A stretch of DNA of 40,412 nt, from assembly GCA_021827145.1 (NCBI GenBank), contig JAKAXK010000010.1, positions 1 to 40,412 of the forward strand, given 5' to 3'. This stretch comes from Pseudomonadota bacterium. Its GTDB lineage: Bacteria > Pseudomonadota > Gammaproteobacteria > Acidiferrobacterales > Acidiferrobacteraceae. The notes under the pieces are model-generated. The model made no database searches and was not told where the DNA came from. It worked only from the letters and a program-made list of their open reading frames with translations. How positions within the stretch are numbered: the stretch's first letter is position 1; every line of letters starts with the position of its first letter. Positions 870-13,331 of the stretch are shown here, piece after piece. A program made the position numbers and the translations under genes.

Positions 870-2168
870 ATGAGTATAAAATCCGACAAATGGATCCGGC
901 GCATGGCGCAGGATCATGGGATGATCGAGCCCTTCGAGCCCGGTCAGGTGAAGTCTCGAGGGGACGAGCGCCTCGTATCCTTCGGCACGTCGAGCTACGG
1001 TTACGATATCCGCTGTTCCAACGAGTTCAAGATCTTTACCAACATCAATTCTGTGATCGTCGATCCAAAGAACTTCGACGCCAATAGTTTTGTGGATTTT
1101 CATGGCGACGTATGCATCATACCGCCCAATTCCTTCGCCCTTGCGCGAACGGTCGAATATTTTCGTATCCCACGGAACGTCCTTACGATCTGCCTTGGTA
1201 AGTGCGTGACCGGCGATACGCGCGTCCTCGACGTCGACACAGGCGAGTATCTGCGCATCAGGGATTGGGACCGTGCGCGGCGCACCGCGGCGCTGGCTGC
1301 GGGCGGGATGCGTCAGGCGCGGGTCGCGGCACTGGCCTCCCATGGGGTCAAGCCCGTATGGCGGCTCGTCACGGAAAGCGGCCTGTCGCTCACGGCGACT
1401 GCCAACCATCCCCTGCTCACACCCACAGGCTGGGTGCCGCTTTCGGATCTCGCCGTAGGCGACCGGCTCGCGGCGGCCGTGTCGGCCCCGTTCTTTGGGA
1501 CCAAGCCCTTGATCGCGCCCGAGCGGCTTGGGCGCCTCGTGCGGGCGCAGGCGCGGGCGGGCACACTCGATGTCCTTCCGGACGCGGTCTTTCGCGCCCC
1601 GCGTGCCGATATCGCCCGTTTCGTGGCAGCCGTCATGGGGGATTGCGCGAGCGAGGGCTTGTGTGCCGCGCGCTCCCTGGTCGATGAGGTGCGCCACCTC
1701 GCGACCCGTCTTGGTATGTCCTGCCGGACGGTCGAGGAAGGCCTCGGCGCGCGCCTGCTCGCGCGGGACTCAGCCCTCGCGTATCGCGGTAACGGCACCG
1801 ATGGCGCTTACGCTTGTGGCGCCACCGAGTGGGATCGGGTGGCGAGCCTTCAGGCCGCCGGCCAAGAGCCGGTCTACGACATCGAGGTCCCCGGGTTGCA
1901 CAATTTCCTCGCAAACGGACTGATCGTGCACAACTCCACCTATGCGCGCTGCGGCATCATCGTCAACGTGACGCCCTTCGAGCCGGAGTGGGAGGGTCAT
2001 GTCACGCTCGAGTTCTCAAACACCTCGCCCCTGCCGGCGAAGATCTACGCCAACGAAGGTGTGGCGCAGGTGATCTTTTTCGAGGCCGACGAACCCTGTG
2101 AGACCTCCTATAAGGATCGCGGCGGCAAGTACCAGGGCCAGAAGGGCGTCACCCTGCCCAAGACCTGA
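870..2168 (+). CDS. dcd: dCTP deaminase interrupted in-frame by an intein
   Basis: The precursor has 432 codons. Residues 1-111 and 356-432 join into a 188-residue dCTP deaminase, the usual size of the trimeric dCTP to dUTP enzyme that supplies dUMP for thymidylate. The N-terminal part begins MSIKSDKWIRRMA and ends ICLGK; the C-terminal part starts STYARCGIIVNVTP. This rebuilds the family active site G-K-S-T-x-x-R, with Ser112 and Arg116 of the joined protein matching E. coli Ser111 and Arg115. The glutamate of VTLEF (joined residue 137) is the expected general base. Residues 112-355 are an intein, annotated separately. The unspliced protein should be inactive because the catalytic serine is cut off from GK. 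The start is chosen by homology; GAGGG sits directly against the ATG and a better GGAGGAG lies about 25 bases upstream, so initiation may be weak. Dut, the next enzyme of the route, is encoded at 7.4-7.9 kb. Confidence 0.96.
   Translation: MSIKSDKWIRRMAQDHGMIEPFEPGQVKSRGDERLVSFGTSSYGYDIRCSNEFKIFTNINSVIVDPKNFDANSFVDFHGDVCIIPPNSFALARTVEYFRIPRNVLTICLGKCVTGDTRVLDVDTGEYLRIRDWDRARRTAALAAGGMRQARVAALASHGVKPVWRLVTESGLSLTATANHPLLTPTGWVPLSDLAVGDRLAAAVSAPFFGTKPLIAPERLGRLVRAQARAGTLDVLPDAVFRAPRADIARFVAAVMGDCASEGLCAARSLVDEVRHLATRLGMSCRTVEEGLGARLLARDSALAYRGNGTDGAYACGATEWDRVASLQAAGQEPVYDIEVPGLHNFLANGLIVHNSTYARCGIIVNVTPFEPEWEGHVTLEFSNTSPLPAKIYANEGVAQVIFFEADEPCETSYKDRGGKYQGQKGVTLPKT
1203..1934 (+). other. Intein (244 aa) in Dcd with an eroded homing-endonuclease region
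   Basis: The element is exactly 732 bases and keeps frame. It starts with Cys1 in CVTGDTRV (block A). Block B is LTATANHPLLT, with Thr66 and His69 forming the T-x-x-H motif. Block F is VYDIEVPGLHNFLANG, with Asp226 and His233. Block G ends in His243-Asn244, followed by Ser as the +1 extein residue. These are all the residues needed for class 1 protein splicing. Between blocks B and F lie about 120 residues instead of a full two-motif LAGLIDADG domain. One stretch, ADIARFVAAVMGDCASEG, followed by a helix containing EVRHLATRLGM, resembles a single worn LAGLIDADG half, so the nuclease is probably dead. Base composition does not stand out from the host gene. Boundaries are precise because the flanking extein sequence is so conserved. 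Confidence 0.94.
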
Positions 2169-7439: not shown

Positions 7440-7901
7440 TCAGCGAATACCCGAGTGACCGAACCCGGACTCGCCACGCTCGGTCGCCTGCGCGAATTGG
7501 TCGACGATACGGAAATGCGCCGCGACCACCGGGACGATCAAAAGCTGGGCCACGCGGTCGCCCGGGGTAATGGTGAAGGGTGTGTCGCCGCGGTTCCAGC
7601 AGGACAAGCTGATCTCGCCCTGGTAGTCGGAGTCGATGAGGCCCACGGTATTGCCGAGAATGAGCCCTTTGTGTCCAAGCCCTGAGCGCGGCAGGATGAG
7701 TGCGGCATAGGCGCGGTCGGCGATATGGAGGGCGAGACCCGTCGGCACGAGCCGACAGTCCGATGGCGCCAGAGTGAGCGGTCCCTGGACACAGGCGCGC
7801 AGATCCACGGCGGCGGACCCCGCGGTCGCATAGGTGGGAAGCGGGAATTCCTTCCCGTAGCGCGTATCCAGGATCTTGAGGTCTACGATGGGTCCGGTCA
7901 C
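7440..7901 (-). CDS. dut: dUTP diphosphatase
   Basis: A 153-residue homotrimeric dUTPase that hydrolyses dUTP to dUMP and pyrophosphate. All five motifs are present in order: [22 protein letters not shown], the TPGDRVAQL segment and [10 protein letters not shown]. The start is taken as the GTG beginning [12 protein letters not shown], 5 bases after the coaBC stop. Longer forms would overlap coaBC heavily and exceed the usual length of about 150. It is co-transcribed with coaBC. Functionally it follows the intein-bearing Dcd at the other side of the window. Confidence 0.96.
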
Positions 7902-9879: not shown

Positions 9880-10359
9880 TCAGAGCAGGGGTTCGCGCGG
9901 CGGCGGCTTGGGGGCGGCCTCGTCTTTGGCCAGGGTCTCGCCGAAGGCCTTGAGGCCATCCAGTAAGGGGCCCAAGGCGCGCCAGAGGGCGTCGTCCCGG
10001 AGAAAACGGTAGGCGCCCGTGATCCCTGGTGGATCACCGACCCCGTCACGCGGTGTCTCGGTCTCGCGTTCCACGCTTTGTGTGGCGACCGACGCGGCCT
10101 CCATGAAGCGAGAGAAGTCCTGTGGGGGCACGCGCCCCAAGGCCTGCAGGAGGGCGACGATGTTTTGAACCGTATGGCGCGATGCCGTGGTGTTCAGGCC
10201 GCGAGCCACGATGAGGCTGGCGTTCGGCAAGGCACCTACAAATGCCGTCAGGGAGCGCAGAATGCCCTGTCGGGAGAGGGCCTCCAGGAGTTCGAGGAGT
10301 TCCTGTTCGGCGGTCGCCTCCCGCGGGGGTTTATGGCGGTAATCGATGAAGGCGCTCAT
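9880..10359 (-). CDS. DUF1641 protein, formate dehydrogenase partner
   Basis: A 159-residue protein. Its ATG overlaps the stop of the formate dehydrogenase gene by four bases (ATGA), so translation is coupled. The central region, with LSRQGILRSLTAFVGALP and a later GLNTTASRHTVQNIVALLQALG helix, matches the DUF1641 pattern of Bacillus YrhD/YjgD, which pair with the formate dehydrogenases YrhE/YjgC. The C-terminal 30 residues are proline- and charge-rich and probably flexible. No signal peptide or membrane segment is visible. Its exact job is not known; a subunit or assembly factor is the usual guess. Confidence 0.8.
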   Translation of the reverse strand: MSAFIDYRHKPPREATAEQELLELLEALSRQGILRSLTAFVGALPNASLIVARGLNTTASRHTVQNIVALLQALGRVPPQDFSRFMEAASVATQSVERETETPRDGVGDPPGITGAYRFLRDDALWRALGPLLDGLKAFGETLAKDEAAPKPPPREPLL

Positions 10360-13331
10360 GACGGATCCCCCGCGCGGGAAGCCAATGTGCCCGGAATGGG
10401 CCGATACTCGTCACGTTTCCATTTGCGTTCGACCTCGACGCCGGATTGGGGGGTGCGCGTACCAAAGCGGGGATTGGAGCGGGGTACCGGCGAGGGGCCT
10501 TCGCGCGTGAGCACCTTGAGCTTCACGGCCAATTCCTTGAAGGCGGGTGTCTGGGTCGCCGCGTCGACGTGGTTGCCGGTGAGGCGGTTGATGGGCTCCT
10601 TCAAGGAGAATTCGACCGTATAGAGTTCGCGCCCGATGACGCGGGGACTCACCAATACCCGGGCGTCCACGCTGCCGCGGCGCGACGTGAGTGTCACGCA
10701 AGCCCCGGTCTTGATATTCAATTCCTCGGCGAGAGCGCGCGATACCTCCACGTAAAACTGATCGACCTTGGAAATGATACCGGGCACGCGGGAGGTGAGA
10801 TTGCCCTCCTGGAAGTGCTCGAGTACGCGGCCGTTGTTCAAAGTGAGATCATATTCGGCGCCGGCCTGCTCCACCGGGGCGTGCCAATGGACAGGATAGA
10901 GCTTGGCCTTGCCGTCTTCGGTGTGGAAGCTCTTGGTGTAGAGCAGCGTTTCGGAATGGCCTTGGGTGTTGACCGGCCAGACGAGCGATTCATAGCCTGC
11001 GAGTCGATCGTAAGTGACCCCAGCCAGGATCGGCGCCACCTTGCTGGCCTCCGACATGATCTCCCGAGGTCCGGTGTAATCCCAATGGTGACCGAATCGC
11101 TGGGCGAGTTCGCAGAGTATCAGCCAGTCGGGTTTCGATTCCCCGAGGGGGTCGAGGGCGCGCTCAAAGCGCTGGATGCGTCGTTCCGTGTTCACGAAGG
11201 TGCCTTCCTTTTCGAGGCTGGGGCACGCTGGCAGCACGACATCGGCAAATTGGGCAGTGGTGCTCATGAAGATGTCCTGGACGACCAGGAACTCGAGCTT
11301 CGCCAGCGCATTTTGGGTGTGGTGGGTATCGGCATCGACGACTGCCGTGTCTTCGCCGATGATGTACATGGCCTTGAGGTCGCCGGCGTGCGCCGCCTCT
11401 ATCATGCTGTGGTTGTTGAGCCCGGGCTTGGCGGGGATCTCGACCCCCCAGGCACGACCGACGTGTTCACGCGCCTTGGGGTCCGAGACCTTCAGGTAGC
11501 CAGGCAACTTTTCGGATAAGGCGCCGAAGTCGCCCGCTCCCTGGACGTTGTTGTGGCCGCGCAAGGGGTAGGCCCCGGAGCCCTTTTTTCCATAGTTGCC
11601 GGTGACCAAGAGCAGGTTCGATATGGCGGTGCTCGTGTCGCTGCCGGTCGTGCGTTGTGTCACGCCCATGGCCCAGAGGGCGCAGACACCCGAGGCGGCG
11701 ACGATCATGTCGGCGATGCGCACGATCTCGGCCTCGGCGAGGCCGGTCTCGGCGTGGGCATAGGCGAGCGTGAACGGGGCGAGCGAGGCGCGCAGGGCAT
11801 CCAGATTGTTCACGCGTTTTTCAAGGAACGCGCGGTCCTCGAGTCCGTGGTCGAGGATATAGCGGGTCACGGCACAGAGCCATACCAAGTCGGTCCCCGG
11901 CCTTGGGCGCAGGAACAGGGTGGCGCGCTCGGCCATTTCGTGGCGCAGAAGGTCTACGACGATCACCTTTACCGCGCCGCGCTTGAGGCGGCGCTTGATT
12001 CGGCTTGCCAGCACCGGGTGGCTGTCAGCGGTGTTCGTGGCGATCAGAAGCAAAAGCTCGGCGTCGTCGATGTCATCCATGGTGCCCGAGTCCCCCGCAT
12101 AACCCACGGTCCGTGTGAGCCCCTTGGTGGCTGGACTCTGGCAGTAGCGCGAGGTGCAATCGATATTGTTCGTGCCGATGACGCCGCGCGCGAACTTTTG
12201 CGTGAGATAGGCCTCTTCGTTCGAGCCCTTGCTCGTGGCCACGAAGCCCAGGGCGTCGGGTCCGTGACTGGCGCGAATGGCGCTGAATCGTTCATGGATG
12301 CGCGTCAAGGCCTCGTCCCAGCTGGCCTCGCGGAACGTGGACCCTTCCCGGATCAGGGGTTTGACGAGGCGGTCCTGGTTGTTTACGAAGTCCCATCCGA
12401 ATTTGCCCTTGACGCAGGTCGAGATCCCATTGGCCGGTCCCTGCTCCGGTTGGATTTTCAGGATATTCCGGCCGCGGGTTGTGATATCGAAGGAGCAGCC
12501 CACACCACAGAAGGTGCACACGGTTTTCGTGATCCTCTGCTCCGCATGGCGCAGACATTCGTCGATCTTTGACAGGGCGGTGATAGGGATGTAGGTCGTG
12601 GTCTGCTCCACGCCTTTCACGAAATCGATCATTTCGCGCTTCAGCGGCGCGGGCCAGCCAGTAAAGGGGCCGGCCTTACCGAGTAGGGTGTTTTCCATGA
12701 GGGCATTGCACGGGCACACCGTCACGCAGTGGCCGCAGGACACACAGCTCGACGCATTGATCGGCTGACCACCGTCCCAGAGGACGCGTGGATGCTCGAG
12801 TTCCCAGCCTATGGTCAGGGTTTCATTGACTTGTACGTTCTGGCAGGCCTCCACGCAGCGTCCGCAGAGGATGCATTGGGATGGATCGTATGTGTAAAAG
12901 GGGTTCGAGGCGTCGATGCTATAGGGCTTAGTCCTGTAGGGGTAGCGTTGATGGCGCAGGGAAAGCTTGTCGACCGCGTTGTGGATCTCGCAGTCGCCGT
13001 TATTGTTGTCGCACACGGAACAGTAAAGTTCGTGCTTTTCGAGGACCCGATCCAAGCCTTCGTGGCGGGCCGCTTCCGACACGGCATCCTGGGTGCTGAC
13101 CTCCAGGCCCTCGTGGGCGACCAGGGTGCAGGCGCGCACGAGCGCCCCGTCGACCGTGACAAAGCAGGTGTCGCAGGTCTTCAGGGGGCCTAAGGCCGGG
13201 TTGTAGCAGAGGTGGGGGATAAATCGCTGGGCGCGGGCGAGGGCATCGAGCAGGTTTTCGCCCACATGACCGGCAATATCGATCTCATCGACACGTATGA
13301 CGCAGGGGTGCAGGTGCGGGTCGGCGGACAC
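10356..13331 (-). CDS. fdhF: Formate dehydrogenase catalytic subunit, Mo/W-bis-MGD, Cys form
   Basis: A 991-residue enzyme oxidising formate to CO2 in the cytoplasm. The N-terminal 2Fe-2S ferredoxin domain has Cys42, 53, 56 and 68. A His-Cys3 4Fe-4S site follows (His100, Cys104, 107, 114). Two ferredoxin clusters come next (CILCGRCVEAC, 153-163, and CVSCGHCVTVC, 196-206), then the catalytic-domain 4Fe-4S site (CTFCGVGC, 272-279, plus Cys306). The metal ligand is Cys397 in SRYCQSP, not selenocysteine. The C-terminal 120 residues form the dinucleotide-binding domain. Translation starts at GTG with AAGGAGG just upstream. No NADH-binding FdsB-type subunit, membrane subunit or fdhD accompanies it; only the DUF1641 gene does, as in Bacillus YrhE-YrhD. 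The electron acceptor is therefore unknown. Confidence 0.95.
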   Translation of the reverse strand: MSADPHLHPCVIRVDEIDIAGHVGENLLDALARAQRFIPHLCYNPALGPLKTCDTCFVTVDGALVRACTLVAHEGLEVSTQDAVSEAARHEGLDRVLEKHELYCSVCDNNNGDCEIHNAVDKLSLRHQRYPYRTKPYSIDASNPFYTYDPSQCILCGRCVEACQNVQVNETLTIGWELEHPRVLWDGGQPINASSCVSCGHCVTVCPCNALMENTLLGKAGPFTGWPAPLKREMIDFVKGVEQTTTYIPITALSKIDECLRHAEQRITKTVCTFCGVGCSFDITTRGRNILKIQPEQGPANGISTCVKGKFGWDFVNNQDRLVKPLIREGSTFREASWDEALTRIHERFSAIRASHGPDALGFVATSKGSNEEAYLTQKFARGVIGTNNIDCTSRYCQSPATKGLTRTVGYAGDSGTMDDIDDAELLLLIATNTADSHPVLASRIKRRLKRGAVKVIVVDLLRHEMAERATLFLRPRPGTDLVWLCAVTRYILDHGLEDRAFLEKRVNNLDALRASLAPFTLAYAHAETGLAEAEIVRIADMIVAASGVCALWAMGVTQRTTGSDTSTAISNLLLVTGNYGKKGSGAYPLRGHNNVQGAGDFGALSEKLPGYLKVSDPKAREHVGRAWGVEIPAKPGLNNHSMIEAAHAGDLKAMYIIGEDTAVVDADTHHTQNALAKLEFLVVQDIFMSTTAQFADVVLPACPSLEKEGTFVNTERRIQRFERALDPLGESKPDWLILCELAQRFGHHWDYTGPREIMSEASKVAPILAGVTYDRLAGYESLVWPVNTQGHSETLLYTKSFHTEDGKAKLYPVHWHAPVEQAGAEYDLTLNNGRVLEHFQEGNLTSRVPGIISKVDQFYVEVSRALAEELNIKTGACVTLTSRRGSVDARVLVSPRVIGRELYTVEFSLKEPINRLTGNHVDAATQTPAFKELAVKLKVLTREGPSPVPRSNPRFGTRTPQSGVEVERKWKRDEYRPIPGTLASRAGDPS

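Follow-up and report, generated by a model that had tools for sequence, protein, structure and literature searches.

We identified an intein inside the gene for dCTP deaminase (Dcd), an enzyme in the supply of DNA building blocks, in a 40,412-nt stretch of DNA (the window), at a point between Lys111 and the serine of a catalytic motif. The precursor very probably carries an old homing intein, reduced to a mini-intein, that has lost its mobility and is now inherited vertically, and the intein is predicted from its residues to splice. The gene forms a single open frame (870-2168, + strand) with an ATG start and no internal stops, encoding a 432-residue precursor. Frame, profile and alignment evidence reproduced exactly the boundaries (1203-1934, between Lys111 and Ser112) and the splicing blocks proposed in a first-pass annotation of the same DNA.

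Features of the window (coordinates, strand, description)
870..1202, +, N-extein of dCTP deaminase, residues 1-111, ending in LTICLGK (profile matches, 4dhk alignment)
1203..1934, +, mini-intein of 244 residues, Cys1 to Asn244, with class-1-type blocks; precursor residues 112-355 (profiles, conservation, predicted fold)
1398..1409, +, block B, Thr-Ala-Asn-His, intein residues 66-69; T66 and H69 invariant in 17/17 (family alignment)
1518..1763, +, central domain, intein residues ~106-187, putative remnant of a LAGLIDADG homing endonuclease, its second half in degenerate form (alignment, predicted fold, TliVMA match)
1869..1916, +, block F region PVYDIEVPGLHNFLAN, intein residues 223-238 (family alignment)
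1929..1934, +, block G, terminal His243-Asn244 (family alignment)
1935..2165, +, C-extein, spliced-enzyme residues 112-188, starting Ser(+1)-Thr-Tyr-Ala-Arg-Cys (profile matches, 4dhk alignment)
2166-2168, +, stop codon of the dcd precursor
7449..7871, -, dut (dUTPase), the enzyme that follows in the pathway; opposite strand, at 5.3 kb from dcd (TIGR00576 136.7 bits, over cut-off; Pfam dUTPase)

The window also encodes (10356-13331) a 991-residue molybdopterin oxidoreductase with N-terminal 2Fe-2S and 4Fe-4S domains, the layout of which we take to be formate-dehydrogenase-like.

The host enzyme

The dCTP deaminase model TIGR02274 (dCTP_deam) matched the whole frame in two separate stretches, scoring 152.8 bits (cut-off 92.8). 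The joined 188-mer aligned over its full length with the solved Dcd 4dhk, the junction being gap-free and the sole gap a single residue near residue 32. This alignment, together with homologues in which the two Dcd halves are contiguous, indicates that the in-frame insertion leaves the host protein complete. Placement of the intein directly before the serine of the catalytic motif, as originally claimed, is well supported by the profiles and the gap-free junction; Ser112 itself is presumably the catalytic serine, the counterpart of E. coli Ser111, although a literature search on the active site of the E. coli enzyme gave no hit. A second intact dcd, which the first-pass annotation had named as a finding that would undermine its reading, was looked for in the window's genome (93.04 % complete) and none was detected. 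Dcd activity can reasonably be expected to depend on splicing of the intein. A predicted model of the entire precursor (mean pLDDT 60.7) was of no use for the Dcd part.

Splicing residues and predicted fold of the intein

Searched alone, the intein scored above the cut-offs of Pfam Intein_splicing (60.5 bits against 35.8) and of the N-terminal and C-terminal intein models TIGR01445 (26.3 against 24.5) and TIGR01443 (36.7 against 15.6). With an HMM trained on 83 intein rows that come from other host sites it scored 137 bits, compared with 5.3 for the best of 1,000 shuffles; as these rows were gathered by likeness to the window's intein family, with some genomes entered twice, the score is a test against chance and no independent discovery. 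Both by sequence and by fold, the best matches of the intein are solved inteins.

Among the inteins of 17 members of the window's family, one of which (G007) is cut short by the edge of its contig and begins at residue 11, the columns invariant in 17/17 include Cys1, Thr66, His69, Asp226, His233, Asn234, His243 and Asn244, and the +1 Ser is likewise present in all 17. These splicing residues are still invariant where identity to the window intein drops to 39 %. The combination of a Cys1 nucleophile, Thr-x-x-His in block B, terminal His-Asn, a +1 Ser and a predicted HINT fold is that of class 1 inteins, and the complete set of splicing blocks that had been read from the one sequence proved to be shared across the family. 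The predicted model of the intein (mean pLDDT 87.2, pTM 0.84) comprises the HINT splicing domain and a compact centre that spans roughly residues 106-187; the model is uncertain over residues 197-205. Its best fold matches were DnaB and RecA mini-inteins and the endonuclease-bearing TliVMA intein, the last of which extends over a larger share of the model (query-normalised TM 0.74). The window intein appears to be a true class-1-type intein that is probably splicing-competent. To judge from the residues present, Cys1 would take the Lys111 junction as a thioester after translation, the chain would then move to Ser(+1), and Asn244 would cyclise with the assistance of His243, joining the Dcd halves into an enzyme of 188 residues.

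An endonuclease remnant in the centre of the intein

Only about 80 residues of an endonuclease domain remain in the window intein. The insertion point, LGK|STYAR, is referred to here as site a, and inteins at exactly this site were also found in four further loci, with lengths of 317 (L039), 393 (L041), 409 (L044) and 388 (L047) residues. In alignment with these, the first LAGLIDADG motif region of the window intein is missing and the second motif, which we take to be of LAGLIDADG identity, is degenerate, its acidic residue not being kept across the family. A full-length LAGLIDADG intein was ruled out, as two motifs with acidic residues are not present. We infer that the endonuclease is dead. 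Its ancestor would have been a mobile LAGLIDADG intein specific to site a of Dcd, which lost the first-motif region and suffered decay of the second motif, so ending homing, and which thereafter would have passed vertically through the family. The first-pass annotation, sound in its intein call, was silent on the remnant and on the family-wide, apparently vertical inheritance.

The mild constraint on the central remnant (see below) and its confident predicted fold suggest that it may have a use. Constraint and a compact fold would also be expected were the intein still mobile, with homing driven by the degenerate domain or by an endonuclease acting in trans, but the missing first motif region, an acidic residue that is not family-wide and the largely vertical pattern in the trees make this extremely improbable, as does the single intein-domain match in the window's genome, where no second intein was detected.

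Distribution of the insertion

The genome set comprised 194 genomes including the window's own, 176 of which match the precursor. Matches to dcd that span the intein were obtained in the window's genome, in all 13 other genomes of the genus and in three of the four others of the family, so that the same insertion is carried by 17/17 family genomes with a detected dcd, out of 18 family genomes searched. The exception, G015 (97 % complete; loci L024 and L237), has dut and no detected dcd; its lone TIGR02274 hit is weak (19.3 bits, under the cut-off) and falls inside the dut gene. This genome raises the prospect that Dcd may not be essential in the window's family.

Among 39 genomes of the same order outside the family, the N-half of Dcd was listed for 34, three gave no match and two (G038 and G048) gave weak matches only. 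In 33 of the 34 the match stops at residue 111-112 and the frames are of ≤303 residues, too short for Dcd plus a 130-residue intein. The remaining genome, G021 (L218:851-2029), carries a 205-residue Dcd mini-intein; its reading as a site-a mini-intein proved wrong, as alignment places it after STYAR, at what we term site b. In the congeners of G021 (G026, G030, G034 and G040) the frames are 212-217 residues long, too short for an intein, and Dcd is contiguous in G040. Fifteen places in the order and class, chosen for their long frames or multiple matches, were compared; in 14 of these the two halves of Dcd adjoin directly, the fifteenth being G021.

In the class sample, 23 of 369 genomes matched a full-size site-a intein at 1e-10, and two of the 23 loci lie inside Dcd, both in the window's genus. 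The full Dcd-plus-intein query matched 186 of 398 genomes of the phylum sample at 1e-20; among the matches listed only the window's own entered the intein, and Dcd is contiguous in all seven listed places with frames >318 residues. Named genomes were scanned as well, and among the best 80 of 538 confirmed relatives the closest loci carry the names Proteobacteria, Acidiferrobacter sp. (L028) and Acidiferrobacteraceae (L035). A pool of 160 loci, made up of these 80 and of 80 of the 93 relatives on viral contigs, contained 19 whose flanks match Dcd: 14 from the window's family, L039, L041, L044, L047 and, weakly, L179. On the last, a viral contig, the match is to the C-half of Dcd (L179:5909-6055, 33 % over 49 residues) and lies ~2.8 kb after an intein end.

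Phage and plasmid records were searched for a donor. Of 76 phage records matching the intein, 75 did so at <60 % identity and one at 80-90 % over no more than a minor portion of its length, and with no close donor among the matches listed a phage donor was rejected. The proteins matched, where named among the best 60 of the 76, were ThyX, helicase, terminase, reductase and similar. A plasmid donor was rejected as well, all five matching plasmid records falling under 60 % identity. With the whole precursor and L047 as queries, Dcd genes lacking an intein were recovered from phages, and LR745208 showed an intein without an adjoining Dcd match.

Inheritance and selection

Trees of the intein and of the extein for the 17 family members both recover {L017,L018,L019}, {L014,L015} and {L003-L006}; they conflict on L006, which joins L003 and L004 in the extein tree (96/89) and L005 in the intein tree (90/80). 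A larger tree of 126 splicing-domain rows (117 different, several genomes twice, after length and score cuts) held the inteins of site a and of other hosts, the site-b rows being left out; few alignment columns were available and bootstrap values were unsettled. In it the 20 site-a rows (one genome twice), comprising 16 of the window's family and the four longer inteins from other Proteobacteria, form one clade (100/97), so that site a appears to hold a single intein lineage. Alignment, distribution and trees together support largely vertical inheritance of the intein within the family. The four other loci come from unrelated-looking Proteobacteria, so over longer time the site was entered or kept more than once. 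The G+C content is 0.557 in the extein, 0.699 in the intein and 0.644 in the window, with third positions at 0.74 and 0.80, and a recent transfer of the intein was not read from base composition.

Across 16 chosen genome pairs, in the more distant of which synonymous change is high or saturated, dN/dS stayed below 1, ranging from 0 to 0.044 in the extein, from 0.05 to 0.32 in the splicing domain and from 0.15 to 0.56 in the centre of the intein (its residues 101-206). The splicing parts are kept and the centre of the intein is loosely held. The low extein values and the family-wide invariance of the splicing residues argue against a splicing-dead intein, in which the precursor would be a broken dcd and dUMP would be made by another route; such a route would accord with the presence of dut and lack of a detectable dcd in G015, yet we regard this reading as very improbable.

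Retention of an old, immobile intein would be passive, we infer, as precise deletion is rare and failed splicing costs the cell Dcd. The usual argument, as put in the available portion of a review (PMC7765530), is that after insertion selection maintains splicing rather than the endonuclease.

A second explanation for retention is regulation, in which oxidation, pH or metal would slow splicing, gating Dcd and the dUTP/dTTP supply, and selection would fix the intein. Carriage by every family genome with a detected dcd despite a degenerate endonuclease fits this idea, although simple failure to lose the intein would give the same distribution. Four residues upstream of the junction, extein Cys108 is invariant in the 17 (the sole extein position compared), but a cysteine at -4 is also found in the intein-free Dcd 4dhk, and within the intein no cysteine besides Cys1 is invariant, Cys174 being present in 13/17. 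The redox- or temperature-sensitive switch suggested by the first-pass annotation thus finds no support here. The available text on the mycobacterial DnaB intein (PMC6195587) describes conditional splicing via a cysteine toggle in which the partner cysteine is itself non-conserved, so that the argument from cysteines against a switch is weak. Overall a regulatory switch on Dcd splicing has precedents but lacks specific support, and we consider a regulated intein unlikely. A stronger version appears more doubtful still: the dead homing element would have been domesticated as a fixed post-translational gate on Dcd in a family that we take to be acidophilic, the remnant serving as a structural or sensing domain and splicing answering acid or oxidative stress. 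Such a gate, if real, would match dUTP supply to growth.

Comparison with known inteins

Dcd inteins as such are not new, and the window adds another member. The first-pass annotation was unsure whether they had been catalogued; one is already in print, in gp069 of the cyanophage vB_AphaS-CL131, for which the available text reports self-excision in E. coli and a length of 351 residues with an HNH endonuclease (PMC6293099). The same text, citing MacGregor 2013, mentions Dcd proteins termed 'intron-containing' from two bacteria, one Proteobacterium and one Chloroflexi; these are cited as having, like the window, a self-splicing insert in this host enzyme. Site a may already be catalogued. In two publications that deal with inteins of Thiomargarita and Desulfonema (PMC4853749, PMC6390638) the word deaminase is absent from the available text, and our literature search found no publication linking intein and Acidiferrobacter.

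Outside the family, the inteins closest to that of the window are those at the same Dcd site in L039 (Methylococcaceae), L041, L044 and L047 (Proteobacteria), which form the sister group of the family's inteins in the intein tree. Those of L041, L044 and L047 are longer and have a less decayed endonuclease region, with a longer LAGLIDADG-type domain, while that of L039 looks decayed. The dcd of L041 (L041:4001-5179, on to 5984) contains two inteins five residues apart, the second, of 263 residues, following STYAR (STYAR|CGII, the CL131 site b). From their motifs we presume the L041 endonucleases to be LAGLIDADG-like at site a and HNH-like at site b.

The finding leaves the general picture of inteins unchanged. 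Site a is recorded here as a Dcd insertion point other than the one on which the experiments in CL131 were done, and L041 shows that a single small enzyme can be interrupted at both, only five residues from each other. Inteins of site a grade from full-size to mini-intein, and every sampled Dcd-bearing member of the family has one, which makes this a tidy case for asking why endonuclease-less inteins persist.

DnaB mini-inteins (PDB 1mi8, 6frg, 4o1r) are among the best sequence and fold matches to the window's splicing domain, but they occupy another site in another host protein and their chains of 142-169 residues leave no room for a central domain. The CL131 intein, like the window's, interrupts this short motif of Dcd. 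It lies at site b, after STYAR and before Cys, five residues downstream of site a, and (352 residues as cut here) ends in Lys-Asn, whereas the window's ends in His-Asn. The window intein as an allele of the CL131 intein is ruled out by the different insertion sites, and on the differences in site, ending and alignment rests our view that site b would hold a lineage separate from that of site a.
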